Assembly: GCF_031456835.1 (NCBI RefSeq)
Contig: NZ_JAVDVK010000001.1
Span: 1,116,001-1,180,000, forward strand
Source of the DNA: Leifsonia shinshuensis
Lineage (GTDB): Bacteria; Actinomycetota; Actinomycetes; Actinomycetales; Microbacteriaceae
Direction of reading: 5' to 3'
Length of the DNA stretch: 64,000 nucleotides
Positions 47,729 through 55,569 of the stretch are shown here, piece by piece; the stretch's first letter is position 1; every line of letters starts with the position of its first letter. Below the pieces are notes generated by a model. It ran no database searches and was not told where the DNA came from. It was given only the letters and a program-made list of their open reading frames with translations. Both the position numbers and the translations under genes were made by a program.

Positions 47729-49828
<2,100 letters not shown>

Positions 49829-50039: not shown

Positions 50040-50276
50040 ATGTCGACAGTAACCTCGGAGAACGGGGCCGTTGACGAGCTCGCATCAGGGCCGCAACTGA
50101 CGGCCGCGGACCGTTGCGACAGCTGCGGGGCGCAGGCGTACATCAGGGTCGTCGTGAACAACGGCGAACTGCTGTTCTGCGCGCACCACGGCAAGAAGCA
50201 CCAGGAGAAGCTCTCTCAGATCGCCCACAGCTGGCACGACGAGACCGCTCGCCTGTTCGAAGAGCAGCGCGCGTAA
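50040..50276 (+). CDS. Small Cys/His zinc-binding-like protein (DUF7455 type)
   Basis: The 78-residue protein has DRCDSCGAQAYIRVV and then LLFCAHHGKKH, a C-x2-C ... C-x2-H set likely to bind one zinc ion, followed by a helix rich in Glu and Lys. Such proteins are conserved in actinobacteria near sigA and parE; I believe the current family name is DUF7455. ATG 50040 follows GGAAGGAG by 5 nt. The function is unknown. Confidence 0.75.
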   Translation: MSTVTSENGAVDELASGPQLTAADRCDSCGAQAYIRVVVNNGELLFCAHHGKKHQEKLSQIAHSWHDETARLFEEQRA

Positions 50277-50312: not shown

Positions 50313-51017
50313 ATGGTGACACGGACGGGTGTGCGCAGACGCGCCCACATCGACCTCGACACCATCCGCCAGACGGCAGCCTCCTCGTCACTCCCCGACT
50401 GCACCGCCGATCTCCGCGCCGACGCGTACGGACACGGGCTCCTGCCCGTGGCTCGTGCGCTGACGGATGCGGGGGTCGGCGGTTTTCTCGTCTCCCGGGT
50501 GGAGGACGCCGCCGCGCTCGCGGACGAAGGCCTCCCCGTCCCGGTCGAGATCGGCGCCCCGGAGTCCGGCCGCACCGTTCGCGGGCCGGAGCTGTTCGGG
50601 CTCGATCCCGCACATCCATCGCCCCCCGCCATGCGGCTGGAGGGCGAGGTCATCGCCGTGAAGCGCGTGCCCGCCGACCGCGGCGTCTCGTACGGCTACA
50701 CCTACCGCACGTCGCACCCCACCACGCTCGTGCTCGTCGCGCTGGGCTATGCCGACGGCATCCTGCGCGTGGCGTCCAACAAGGCGCCGGTCAAGGTCGG
50801 CGACATCATCGGCCGCATCACCGGCCGGATCGCCATGGACCAGTTCGTCGTCGACGTCGGCGGTGACGGTCCAGCGCCCGGCGACCCGGTCATCCTGTTC
50901 GGCGACCCGGAGCTCGGCGAGCCGACGGTGCTCGACTGGGCGGACGCCCTGGGCGTGGCCGCCCCGGTCATCACCAGCAGGCTCGGCCGGCGCATCGAGA
51001 GGACGTACACCCGATGA
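50313..51017 (+). CDS. Short alanine racemase paralogue: keeps the C-terminal domain, lacks PLP lysine and most of the barrel
   Basis: This 234-residue protein joins the first strands of an alanine racemase barrel to a full C-terminal domain. The PLP-lysine motif reads LRADAYGHG, with Arg35 instead of lysine, and about 130 barrel residues are absent. The C-terminal domain is well kept: GVSYGYTYRT holds the catalytic tyrosine (Y127, equal to Y265 of Geobacillus Alr) and GRIAMDQFVV holds the substrate-carboxylate methionine. Alone it cannot bind PLP covalently. Its stop codon is 10 bp before a full-length paralogue that has the lysine but not this tyrosine. The start is ATG 50313 or GTG 50316. 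Confidence 0.75.
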   Translation: MVTRTGVRRRAHIDLDTIRQTAASSSLPDCTADLRADAYGHGLLPVARALTDAGVGGFLVSRVEDAAALADEGLPVPVEIGAPESGRTVRGPELFGLDPAHPSPPAMRLEGEVIAVKRVPADRGVSYGYTYRTSHPTTLVLVALGYADGILRVASNKAPVKVGDIIGRITGRIAMDQFVVDVGGDGPAPGDPVILFGDPELGEPTVLDWADALGVAAPVITSRLGRRIERTYTR

Positions 51018-51027
51018 GGACGCCCGC

Positions 51028-52104
51028 ATGACGATCGTGGACGCCGTCGCCGAACCGCTCCCCCGCGCGGTCATCGACCTGGCCGCTCTGCGGCACAACG
51101 TCGCGCACCTCACCGCGCTGATCGCCCCCGCCGAGACGATGCTCGCCGTGAAGGCGGACGCGTACGGCCACGGGCTGCTGCCCATCGCCGAAGCCGGCCT
51201 GGAGGCGGGAGCCACCTCTCTCGCCGTGCTCGAGATCCCGGCGGGGCTGGTGCTCCGCCACGCGGGGATCACCGTCCCCCTGCTCGCCTGGCTGCACGGC
51301 CGCGACACGGACTGGCGCGCCGGCATCGAGGCGGACATCCAGCTGGGCATCTCCGCCCAGTGGCAGCTGGATGCGATCGCCGCGTCCGGCGCGGACCGCC
51401 CCGCGGTCATCCACCTCAAGGTCGACACCGGCCTCAGCCGCAACGGCGCCACCCGCGAGGAGTGGCCCGGGCTCATCCGCGCCGCCGTCGACCTCGAGCA
51501 GCGCGGCATCGTGCGCATCCGCGCCGCCTGGTCGCACCTCGCGGACGCGTCCATCGCCGACGACGAGGCGGCCCTCGCCGAGTTCCGCGATGCGGTGCTC
51601 GAGGCCGAGAAGCTCGGCGCCCGGTTCGAGGCCCTGCACCTCGCCGCCAGCTCCGCGGGCATCCGGATGCCGGAGGCTCGCTTCTCGTTCGTGCGCTTCG
51701 GGATCGCCGCCTACGGCTTCTCGCCGTTCGACGACTCCACCGGCGCCGAACTAGGCCTCATCCCGGTGATGCGGTTGGAGGCTCCGGTCACCGAGGTGCA
51801 CGTCGGCGGCACCACGCACGCCCGGCTCGGGATCGGCTACGCGGACGGCGTGCCGACCCTCGGCATCGCCAAGACGTCCATCCAGCTGAACGGCCGCCGT
51901 TGCCCCGTGATCGAGGTGGACGCCGACAGCATGCTCGTGGATGCGGGTCCGCACCGCGTGGAGGTGGGCGACACCGCCATCCTGTTCGGCCCGGGCACCG
52001 ACGGCGAGCCGACCGCGGAGAAGTACGCCGACTGGGCGGAGACGATCGCCGACGAGATGGTGACGGGCGTCGCCGCCCGCGTCCCCCGCGTCTACGTCAA
52101 CTGA
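51028..52104 (+). CDS. alr: Alanine racemase-family PLP protein lacking the catalytic tyrosine
   Basis: The 358-residue protein has an intact barrel: LAVKADAYGHG with PLP lysine Lys42, LKVDTGLSRNG, WSHLADAS and FVRFGIAAYGFSP. In the C-terminal domain the segment that should carry the catalytic tyrosine (VSYG) is deleted and reads VHVGGTTHARLGIGYADG. The carboxylate-binding CMDQ-type motif is replaced by IEVDADSM, and the final SYRVPR by AARVPR. A homodimer would thus lack the base supplied in trans. The symbol reflects family only; it may racemise another amino acid or need the upstream short paralogue. Confidence 0.8.
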   Translation: MTIVDAVAEPLPRAVIDLAALRHNVAHLTALIAPAETMLAVKADAYGHGLLPIAEAGLEAGATSLAVLEIPAGLVLRHAGITVPLLAWLHGRDTDWRAGIEADIQLGISAQWQLDAIAASGADRPAVIHLKVDTGLSRNGATREEWPGLIRAAVDLEQRGIVRIRAAWSHLADASIADDEAALAEFRDAVLEAEKLGARFEALHLAASSAGIRMPEARFSFVRFGIAAYGFSPFDDSTGAELGLIPVMRLEAPVTEVHVGGTTHARLGIGYADGVPTLGIAKTSIQLNGRRCPVIEVDADSMLVDAGPHRVEVGDTAILFGPGTDGEPTAEKYADWAETIADEMVTGVAARVPRVYVN

Positions 52105-52212: not shown

Positions 52213-52929
52213 TCAGAGGGAGACGCCGAGGCGGTCCGCGATCGCGCGGCGCGCGTTGGTGGCGTAGCGGTCGACCCGCTCCGTCTGCGGAACCGGCGCG
52301 ACCTCGCCGCGCAGGGCGGTGCTCAGGAAGCGGTCCGCGAGGGCGGGGTTCATCGGGAGCAGCGGACCGTGCAGGTGCGTGCCGATCGACGCGCCGACGA
52401 CGACGCCCTCCGTCTGGTCGCCGTTGCCCGTGCCGCTGACGACTCGGCCGAGCGGCTCCGCCTCGTCGAGGACGGTGCGGGCGGAGTGGTTCTCGAACCC
52501 GGCGATGGTGCTGCCGTCCGCGAGCGTGACGACGATCTCGCCGACGTGCCGCTTGGCGCCGAGCGCAGCGCGGGTCGGGAAGACCGCCGCGCCGGCGAGC
52601 ACCTCGCCCTCGGGGGTCTCCAGTTCGCTGCCGAGCAGCTGCCAGCCGCCGGCGATGGCGAGGAACGGCACGCCCGCATCCCGCCAGTCGCGTAGCCGGG
52701 CGGCGATGCGCAGGACGTCGGCGTGTACGGCGCGCTGACCGGAGAGCGGGCCGGAGCCGATATGGACGATGTCCGCGCTGGTCGGAAGCTCCGCGCCGAC
52801 GCTGTGGCGGACCACCTCGACGTCGATGCCGCGCCACTGCGCGCGCTCGGCGAGGGCGAGCACGTTGCCGGCGTCGCCGTTGATGCCGAGCTCGGCCGGA
52901 TAGAGGTGCAGGATGCGCAGCACGGTCAT
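52213..52929 (-). CDS. gatD: GatD-like glutamine amidotransferase-fold protein without the catalytic cysteine
   Basis: The 238-residue protein matches GatD along its length: LHLYPAELGINGDAGNVLAL, GFENHSARTVLD and GTHLHGPLLPMNP with the catalytic histidine His187. The nucleophile motif that reads ICGGYQ in S. aureus GatD reads IAGGWQ here; residue 93 is alanine (codon GCC, 52651-52653 on the plus strand). The protein contains no cysteine at all. Glutamine hydrolysis by the normal mechanism is therefore impossible. ATG 52929 overlaps the murT stop as ATGA, so it is coupled to murT and sigA. Confidence 0.85.
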   Translation of the reverse strand: MTVLRILHLYPAELGINGDAGNVLALAERAQWRGIDVEVVRHSVGAELPTSADIVHIGSGPLSGQRAVHADVLRIAARLRDWRDAGVPFLAIAGGWQLLGSELETPEGEVLAGAAVFPTRAALGAKRHVGEIVVTLADGSTIAGFENHSARTVLDEAEPLGRVVSGTGNGDQTEGVVVGASIGTHLHGPLLPMNPALADRFLSTALRGEVAPVPQTERVDRYATNARRAIADRLGVSL

Positions 52930-54200
52930 CGCTCGCGGCCCTCCAGGTCGAGGAAGCCGAGCTGCTTCCGGATCAGCATCATCTGCTCGTAGTTCACGAT
53001 CATCGTCTTCGTGCCGCGCGACGGTTTTGGCAGGGCGAGGAACGCCTGCAGCGCCGGCTTCAGCTCGGGCAGGACCTGGTCGACGTCGATGCCGGCGTAG
53101 GCGAACCGCGTGGCGAACTGCCACGCCTTGGTGCCGGACACCACATCCACGTGCGTGAGCTTCGACAGGTCGATGTCGTACACCCACGACGGGTCGGGGG
53201 TGCCCTCGTCGACCGCGACGAACACCTGCTCCGGCGACTCGGCCAGGTAGTCGAGGTTGAGCTGGAGGCTCGGCGGGTTCTTCATCATGATGATCTCGAC
53301 GTCCTCGTCGCCGACCTTCAGCGTCTCTCCGCGACCGTAGACGGTGCGCAGCGCTGCCATGGCCGCCACGACCGACTGCGGCTGGAACTTCTCCCCCAGC
53401 AGCCGGCGCGCCATCGCCGTGGCGCCCGCCGCATCCACCGCGTAGTGCAGCCCGCGGGCCGGCAGGCCGATCCGGACGTGCTCGCCGCCGATGGTGAGCT
53501 GGGCGCTCTGCACCTCCAGCTTGCTGACGAACACCGACGGGATGGGCAGGGAGCCCGCCGACGCGCCGGTCAGGTCCTTCACATTGGCGAGGCCGTTGGG
53601 GGACGACTCGATGATGGACGGCGCGACGGCGAACGTGGAGACGTCACGGCCCTGCGCGACGAGCTCGGCGCCGACCCGCGACAGGCTGTCGTCGTCCGCG
53701 TTCACCACGACGAACTCGGACGAGCCCTCGGCGATCGAGCGCAGCATCCCGATCACGCGGGTGGGCTCGAAGAAGCGGTTGAGCTGGTCGATCTGCACGT
53801 TGAGCAGCAGCGAGCCGCGCGGCTTCAGCACGCGCGCGAGGTCGACGCCGTAGGCCTCGTCCACCTCGATCACGCCGACATCGCCGCGAACGTAGCCGTC
53901 CAGGGGCACGTCGGCGAGCAGCGCGGAGGCGATGCCCTGCGGCAGGTTGCCGCCCGAGGGATTGGTGAAGACCTCGAGACCGTGCTCGCGCAGGATCGCG
54001 GTGAGCATGTTGGTCGTCGTGGACTTGCCGTTCGAGCCGGACACGAACACGACGCCCAGGGGAAGCCGGCTGACCGCGCGCTCCAGGAACTTCGGGGCGA
54101 TGGCAAGCGCGACACGGCCGGGGACCGCGGAGCCGCCTCCCCGCAGGCGAAGAAGCCAGCGGGCGAGGCGGCCGGCGAGGACCGCCAGTCGGTAACGCAC
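52926..54200 (-). CDS. murT: MurT-like Mur ligase without the zinc ribbon
   Basis: The 424-residue Mur ligase has the P-loop VSGSNGKSTTTN (residues 53-64), the magnesium motif VIEVDEAYG, NVQIDQLNRF, and a C-terminal DUF1727 domain with MMKNPPSLQLNL and SWVYDIDLS. S. aureus and S. pneumoniae MurT amidate the D-Glu alpha-carboxyl of lipid II with ammonia from GatD and carry a Cys4 zinc ribbon. This protein has no cysteine, and the corresponding region (about residues 175-240) is Cys-free. GTG 54200 starts 4 bp after the sigA stop codon. Confidence 0.85.
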   Translation of the reverse strand: MRYRLAVLAGRLARWLLRLRGGGSAVPGRVALAIAPKFLERAVSRLPLGVVFVSGSNGKSTTTNMLTAILREHGLEVFTNPSGGNLPQGIASALLADVPLDGYVRGDVGVIEVDEAYGVDLARVLKPRGSLLLNVQIDQLNRFFEPTRVIGMLRSIAEGSSEFVVVNADDDSLSRVGAELVAQGRDVSTFAVAPSIIESSPNGLANVKDLTGASAGSLPIPSVFVSKLEVQSAQLTIGGEHVRIGLPARGLHYAVDAAGATAMARRLLGEKFQPQSVVAAMAALRTVYGRGETLKVGDEDVEIIMMKNPPSLQLNLDYLAESPEQVFVAVDEGTPDPSWVYDIDLSKLTHVDVVSGTKAWQFATRFAYAGIDVDQVLPELKPALQAFLALPKPSRGTKTMIVNYEQMMLIRKQLGFLDLEGRER

Positions 54201-54204
54201 CGGT

Positions 54205-55569
<1,365 letters not shown>

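Follow-up and report, generated by a model that had tools for sequence, protein, structure and literature searches.

In solved alanine racemases, every active site is shared between two chains, one of which gives Lys39, Tyr43, Ser204, Arg219, and Tyr354, while the opposite chain gives Tyr265′, Tyr284′, Arg290′, and Met312′ (PMC3245724, PMC3485190). The gate residue Tyr354 restricts the pocket to alanine and is absent from the lysine and broad-specificity racemases Lyr and Bar, which are homodimers as well and carry Thr391 (Lyr) or Ala393 (Bar) in its place (PMC3485190). Homodimeric Alr (TIGR00492; PDB 1vfh, 5fac, 1xfc) has two working sites. Racemization of L-Dab to D-Dab has been described for PddB, a DapF-like diaminobutyrate racemase that is PLP-independent, has another fold, and serves a secondary-metabolite product (PMC8225329). 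Heterodimers born by complementary loss are an already known kind, as exemplified by SerRS2α/SLIMP of animal mitochondria (PMC10570016), and trypanosomal AdoMetDC needs a catalytically dead paralogue for activity, the prozyme, which according to the title of the paper relieves autoinhibition (PMC5201418). A heterodimeric or split alanine racemase was not reported among the matches listed in the literature searched.

The gene pair considered here lies in a 64,000-nucleotide stretch of Leifsonia shinshuensis DNA, the whole of which was analysed and is referred to as the window; the genome that holds it comprises 3.79 Mb on a single contig. The features of the pair are the following:

50313..51017, plus strand: short chain S, 234 amino acids, with a barrel remnant and a full C-terminal domain (open reading frame and Pfam)
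50415..50417, plus strand: Arg35 of S, at the position of the PLP lysine Lys39 (alignment)
50691..50693, plus strand: Tyr127 of S, equivalent of the catalytic Tyr265′ (alignment)
50835..50837, plus strand: Met175 of S, equivalent of Met312′, which contacts the substrate carboxylate (alignment)
51018..51027, plus strand: intergenic gap of 10 bp (sequence)
51028..52104, plus strand: long chain Lg, 358 amino acids, with a complete PLP barrel and a C-terminal domain without the Tyr265 segment
51151..51153, plus strand: Lys42 of Lg, equivalent of the PLP lysine Lys39 (alignment)
52051..52053, plus strand: Asp342 of Lg, replacing the gate Tyr354 (TIADE versus TINYE; alignment)

A preliminary description had recognized two adjacent racemase paralogues, and both open reading frames and their Pfam domains bear this out: the genes stand in tandem on the same strand, 10 bp apart. 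The start codon of S is provisional, as GGAGG abuts the ATG, and a GAGG overlapping the S stop codon is, by eye, a plausible ribosome site for Lg. S matches Ala_racemase_N at positions 20–71 of 220 only and Ala_racemase_C over its full length (1–127 of 127), which, together with the residues, agrees with the description of a short chain that keeps the tyrosine and the methionine motif, has Arg35 for the lysine, and has lost most of the barrel. Lg matches the whole of Ala_racemase_N (1–220) and only positions 32–127 of Ala_racemase_C; the alignment likewise agrees that it retains Lys42 and the barrel, with the tyrosine segment deleted and the methionine motif replaced, and it identifies the "final tyrosine" said to be lost from this chain as Tyr354. 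Those two Pfam families are the only ones matched, so that neither chain has the DapF fold with its thiol pair. Against the alanine racemase profile TIGR00492 (cut-off 168 bits), Lg scores above (181.1 bits) and S below (117 bits), and Lg reaches only 60 bits with the broad-specificity racemase profile NF009879 (cut-off 434 bits). Membership of the TIGR00492 equivalog nevertheless fails on Tyr354 and on the presence of both bases in a single chain: Lys39 is found only in Lg and Tyr265 only in S, and the pair has both jointly, so that it would function as a two-piece alanine racemase. A third, complete alr is present elsewhere in the genome (G000:C1:1821030-1821407), adjoining a gene that we take to be tsaE-like from its P-loop motif.

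The partition of residues was followed in an alignment of 43 S with 45 Lg proteins, each assigned to the chain of the window, S or Lg, that gave it the higher score. All 43 S keep the equivalents of Tyr265, Met312, and Arg290, and none has Lys39, which is replaced by Arg (33), Ala (4), Ser (4), Gly (1), or Pro (1). Conversely, the equivalents of Lys39, Lys129, Arg136, His166, Ser204, and Arg219 are present in 45/45 Lg, and Tyr265 in none (gap in 42, Gly in two, Ala in one); among the 44 Lg with letters at these positions, Met312 is never found and Arg290 in three. For comparison, Lys39, Tyr265, Met312, and Arg290 occur together in all 60 rows filed as complete Alr. Loci with a tandem of two complete alr genes, termed B1 and B2, were also seen (L129–L135, L137–L140, L143, L144, L146, L150, and L151), B2 being the full-length partner in Herbiconiux, Clavibacter, Subtercola, and Planctomonas and having Asp at position 354. 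The four residues are likewise complete in 16/16 B1 and 16/16 B2. Each chain of the S–Lg pair therefore retains its own contribution to one shared site and loses its contribution to the other, and the complementary active-site halves proposed for the single pair recur in 43/43 S and 45/45 Lg. Several S proteins are nearly full-length with a ruined barrel (L161, L163, L164, L166, L170, and L181), as would be expected of intermediates.

The co-occurrence of both genes in related genomes, raised in the preliminary description as a point to check, was found throughout the genus, where 28/28 genomes hold S, Lg, and a complete alr. A family survey of 249 Microbacteriaceae genomes from 78 genera, for which 44 S–Lg loci were fetched, places the pair in at least 76 genomes and at least 27 genera (hand count, including six genus members in the sample). 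In 40 of the fetched loci, S and Lg are separate genes in this order on one strand; two have a single S–Lg open reading frame (L148, L166), and two are broken by contig ends. A search of 33 genomes was also inspected, 28 of which have an Lg-type match beside a short open reading frame with a complete C-domain (hand count; across two contig ends in G217), two of them already being among the 44 loci and the remaining 26 being judged from domain extents, not residues; the other five have complete C-domains only. Contig ends apart, S and Lg were adjacent wherever either was seen among the matches listed, and neither was seen alone. The preliminary description had regarded independent occurrence of the genes, with another complete alr present, as speaking against its reading: a complete alr does exist, but the genes were not seen apart. 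Moreover, 20 of 43 proteins in a related set, one being the query's own protein, carry the S C-domain followed by Lg in one chain. Fold prediction for one such natural fusion (P0254, from a relative and not the pair of the window) gave a pLDDT of 92.7 and a pTM of 0.91; this confident fold is consistent with an S–Lg complex, short of proof. Rows aligned to a model covered mainly its residues 251–601 and barely sampled the short half.

Split racemases were also found at a second place, the alr–tsaE locus (L319–L332, L335–L338), where the housekeeping alr itself is split or re-fused in genera g19, g46, g67, and g71. The two parts, termed Lg2 and S2, are separate genes in Agreia (g71) and one open reading frame in Pseudoclavibacter (g67) and genus g19, and a single open reading frame in genus g46 joins the barrel to one C-domain without the tyrosine, a second one with it, and a TsaE-like part. 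In all 16 aligned loci, Lg2 has Lys39 and a gap at Tyr265, and the single SYG motif is located in S2. A search with the Ala_racemase_C profile did not find a complete alr in 17 genomes with such a composite enzyme (four g71, three g67, five g19, and five g46; G278, Agreia bicolorata, repeats G198, and G184 and G226 were judged from profile matches only). D-Ala is required for the cell wall, and since no complete alr was found in these genomes, the composite alr–tsaE enzymes are presumably active, unless D-Ala has another source. A full-length racemase is present in addition in three further g67 genomes, and PRK13340 gave the best score for it in the one tested (G093). An extra full-length racemase with Ala at position 354 was observed at L333:3190-4356 and at L334 (g67), with a match in G270 as well; the one at L333 scores best with PRK13340, yet below the cut-off. 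In Subtercola, a racemase is joined to a TsaE Pfam domain (P0261, P0262, P0264–P0266, and P0268).

Taken together, reciprocal loss, adjacency, fusions, the fold of a fusion, and genomes in which only composite enzymes were found support the proposed obligate S–Lg heterodimer of the alanine-racemase fold, with a single composite active site, which we regard as very probable. In a quick barrel tree, Lg and B2 form one clade (SH-aLRT 98) that also takes in three rows classed as canonical, a B2 among them, and every Lg2 falls outside. An equally quick C-domain tree, resting on few columns, joins S2 of Agreia with B2 (support 99) and leaves S unplaced. As Lg2 lies outside the Lg–B2 clade in the one tree and Agreia S2 sides with B2 in the other, the sequences point to at least two origins of split forms, in which the losses fell on the two copies in opposite ways. 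Within the Lg–B2 clade, split forms are interspersed with complete ones, so that additional origins, or recombination, may have occurred there.

The surroundings of the pair in the window are as follows:

47729..49828, minus strand: DNA gyrase B-type topoisomerase subunit, ParE-like (Pfam)
50055..50276, plus strand: DUF7455 protein, upstream neighbour (Pfam)
52213..52929, minus strand: GatD-like subunit without the nucleophile Cys (AIAGGWQ; profile match)
52926..54293, minus strand: MurT-like ligase (profile match)

A sigma factor gene also lies downstream, on the strand opposite to the pair. By hand count, 32 of 44 loci have murT and/or gatD next to S–Lg, and three of the 12 without them sit on short contigs. 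As an obligate partner, MurT/GatD was discarded, because the pair-bearing genomes G060, G229, G079, G244, G076, and G153 have no GatD match at 1e-8. We take AIAGGWQ to be the GatD nucleophile motif without its Cys; this Cys is missing in 33/33 GatD beside pairs, that of the window included (L123–L182, L268–L288). It is also missing in 20/21 members of a mixed set that includes pair-less genomes, with G041 as the sole one having it, so that absence of the Cys does not mark the pair and looks family-wide. Microbacteriaceae MurT/GatD may hence have a role other than glutamine-dependent amidation, perhaps bridge attachment. In G079 (L153:2571-6638, minus strand), S–Lg is followed on the same strand by genes for an EctB-type diaminobutyrate transaminase (603 bits versus a cut-off of 552.2) and an ATP-grasp protein (ATPgrasp_ST), possibly forming a candidate operon for DAB synthesis, racemization, and ligation; EctB was found beside the pair in this one genome only. 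The dat family (TIGR00709) was rejected as a pair marker, with 50/249 genomes above the cut-off and that of the window below.

What such a heterodimer would act on is suggested by the gate. Of the 44 Lg with letters at position 354, 32 have Asp and the other 12 have Glu, and 16/16 B2 have Asp, as opposed to Tyr in 15/16 B1 (Trp in one) and in 15/15 Lg2 with letters. The 60 rows filed as canonical have Tyr (46), Trp (6), Glu (4), Asp (2), or Gln (2), both Asp rows sitting in B1–B2 tandem loci. By named record, Asp354 occurs in Lg of Leifsonia, whose walls contain DAB, Pseudoclavibacter, Pseudolysinimonas, and a Schumannella MAG, and in B2 of Clavibacter, Herbiconiux, Subtercola, and Planctomonas; Glu354 occurs in Agreia, Frigoribacterium sp. 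CG_9.8, a Homoserinimonas MAG, and the fusions of Parafrigoribacterium and Terrimesophilobacter. The Clavibacter wall has D-Glu linked to D-Ala through D-DAB (PMC9603630), that of Herbiconiux has both D- and L-DAB (PMC10011130), and that of Subtercola has DAB (PMC5945732), while D-Lys, Lys, and D-Orn are described for Frigoribacterium, Parafrigoribacterium, and Homoserinimonas (PMC7033078). Agreia is telling, because DAB is present as L-DAB and yet joined to D-Orn as the bridge residue (PMC5945732), and position 354 is Glu. Across the named genera with a described wall, Asp thus appears to go with DAB and Glu with D-Orn or Lys, though these genera are not independent, as the division into Asp and Glu largely mirrors the phylogeny. 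Rhodoluna is a counter-example to the assignment of a diamino acid substrate: the wall of R. lacicola has D-Ala-D-Dab, and the one Rhodoluna genome searched (G281, L234; an R. limnophila MAG) holds a single ordinary alr with Tyr354. Agromyces aureus is recorded with L-Dab, which the one alr found in the Agromyces genome searched fits, albeit in a different species. The searched literature names no gene for the enzyme that provides group B2 walls with D-DAB, D-Orn, or D-Lys.

Provided that the heterodimer forms, its substrate is likely to be a diamino acid of the peptidoglycan, here DAB. The "split racemase" of the preliminary description accordingly stands as regards the split, whereas the product, judging from Asp or Glu at position 354, is probably the D-diamino acid that bridges the peptidoglycan instead of D-alanine. 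The same composite heterodimer could instead use alanine (or serine/homoserine) and be an extra source of D-Ala, much as the alr–tsaE composites with Tyr354 presumably make D-Ala in the 17 genomes for which the search showed no complete alr. We consider this rather unlikely, given that the genome of the window already has a complete alr by the tsaE-like gene, that Asp or Glu occupies the gate of every Lg and B2 with a letter there, and that murein-ligase genes neighbour the pair. It is quite improbable that, instead of the two chains joining one another, Lg, S, or both associate with the cell's complete Alr, either to modulate it or as a hybrid: such an Alr is present here and would give Lg its Tyr265, but natural S–Lg fusions exist, Agreia and Pseudoclavibacter genomes hold pairs with no complete alr found, and S and Lg were not seen apart. 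Nor does it seem credible, except at a very low level, that neither chain takes part in racemization, Lg being a PLP protein with another, one-base reaction and S a structural partner; loss of Tyr265 does strip the second base from the Lg chain, yet S keeps the equivalents of Tyr265, Met312, and Arg290 in 43/43 proteins, a conservation that would make little sense if these residues did not act in the Lg site. Decay into pseudogenes, for which the large deletion in S might speak, can practically be dismissed in view of purifying selection (dN/dS of 0.21–0.44 for S and 0.14–0.33 for Lg between the window and nine relative loci, two of identical sequence) and conservation of the pair over at least 27 of 78 genera, the dN/dS and the partition in 43/43 S and 45/45 Lg showing neither chance nor decay.

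On balance, we favour the reading of S–Lg as a D-diamino acid racemase that serves the peptidoglycan bridge and works only as a heterodimer; the partition, co-occurrence, fusions, and fold of a fusion were observed, and the complex, its activity, and its substrate are inferred. In this heterodimer, Lg would supply the barrel with PLP bound to Lys42, together with the residues corresponding to Lys129, Arg136, His166, Ser204, and Arg219, and S would supply Tyr127 as second base and Met175 through its C-terminal domain. The mirror site, made up of the S barrel and the Lg C-domain, would be inactive, since S has lost the greater part of its barrel and the Lg C-domain has no tyrosine segment. With Asp342 for Tyr354, the alanine gate would be open and negatively charged, which is why a diamino acid is proposed, and the enzyme would turn L-2,4-diaminobutyrate into the D form that goes into the cross-bridge of group B2 walls.

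So conceived, S–Lg differs from homodimeric Alr in its two different chains, in Asp at the gate, and in having presumably one working site instead of two. With Lyr and Bar it shares a replaced gate, unlike these homodimers being a proposed heterodimer, with Lg far under the NF009879 cut-off, and with PddB it shares the proposed reaction, but not PLP independence, fold, or a secondary-metabolite product. Like SerRS2α/SLIMP, S and Lg are reciprocal-loss paralogues found together; the enzyme is a different one, however, and the losses split one shared site, seemingly more than once. Like prozyme, S would be a catalytically dead paralogue needed for activity, but one that gives a catalytic residue to the shared site instead of relieving autoinhibition.

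A wider scheme, which is tentative, is that Microbacteriaceae repeatedly made obligate composite racemases from tandem duplicates, through reciprocal losses within one shared catalytic site and in both directions, with the B2-type copy keeping the barrel at the parE–murT locus and the tyrosine at the alr–tsaE locus of Agreia, that the parE–murT family would be the D-diamino acid racemase so far missing for group B2 walls, and that Asp or Glu at position 354 would read out DAB versus Orn/Lys. Full-length, truncated, split, and re-fused racemase states coexist in this one bacterial family. If the proposal holds, S–Lg would represent a clean natural case of the passage from homodimer to obligate heterodimer, with two catalytic bases on two genes, as well as a candidate for the enzyme behind the D-DAB, D-Orn, or D-Lys of group B2 walls, and part of the wall type would become predictable from sequence.
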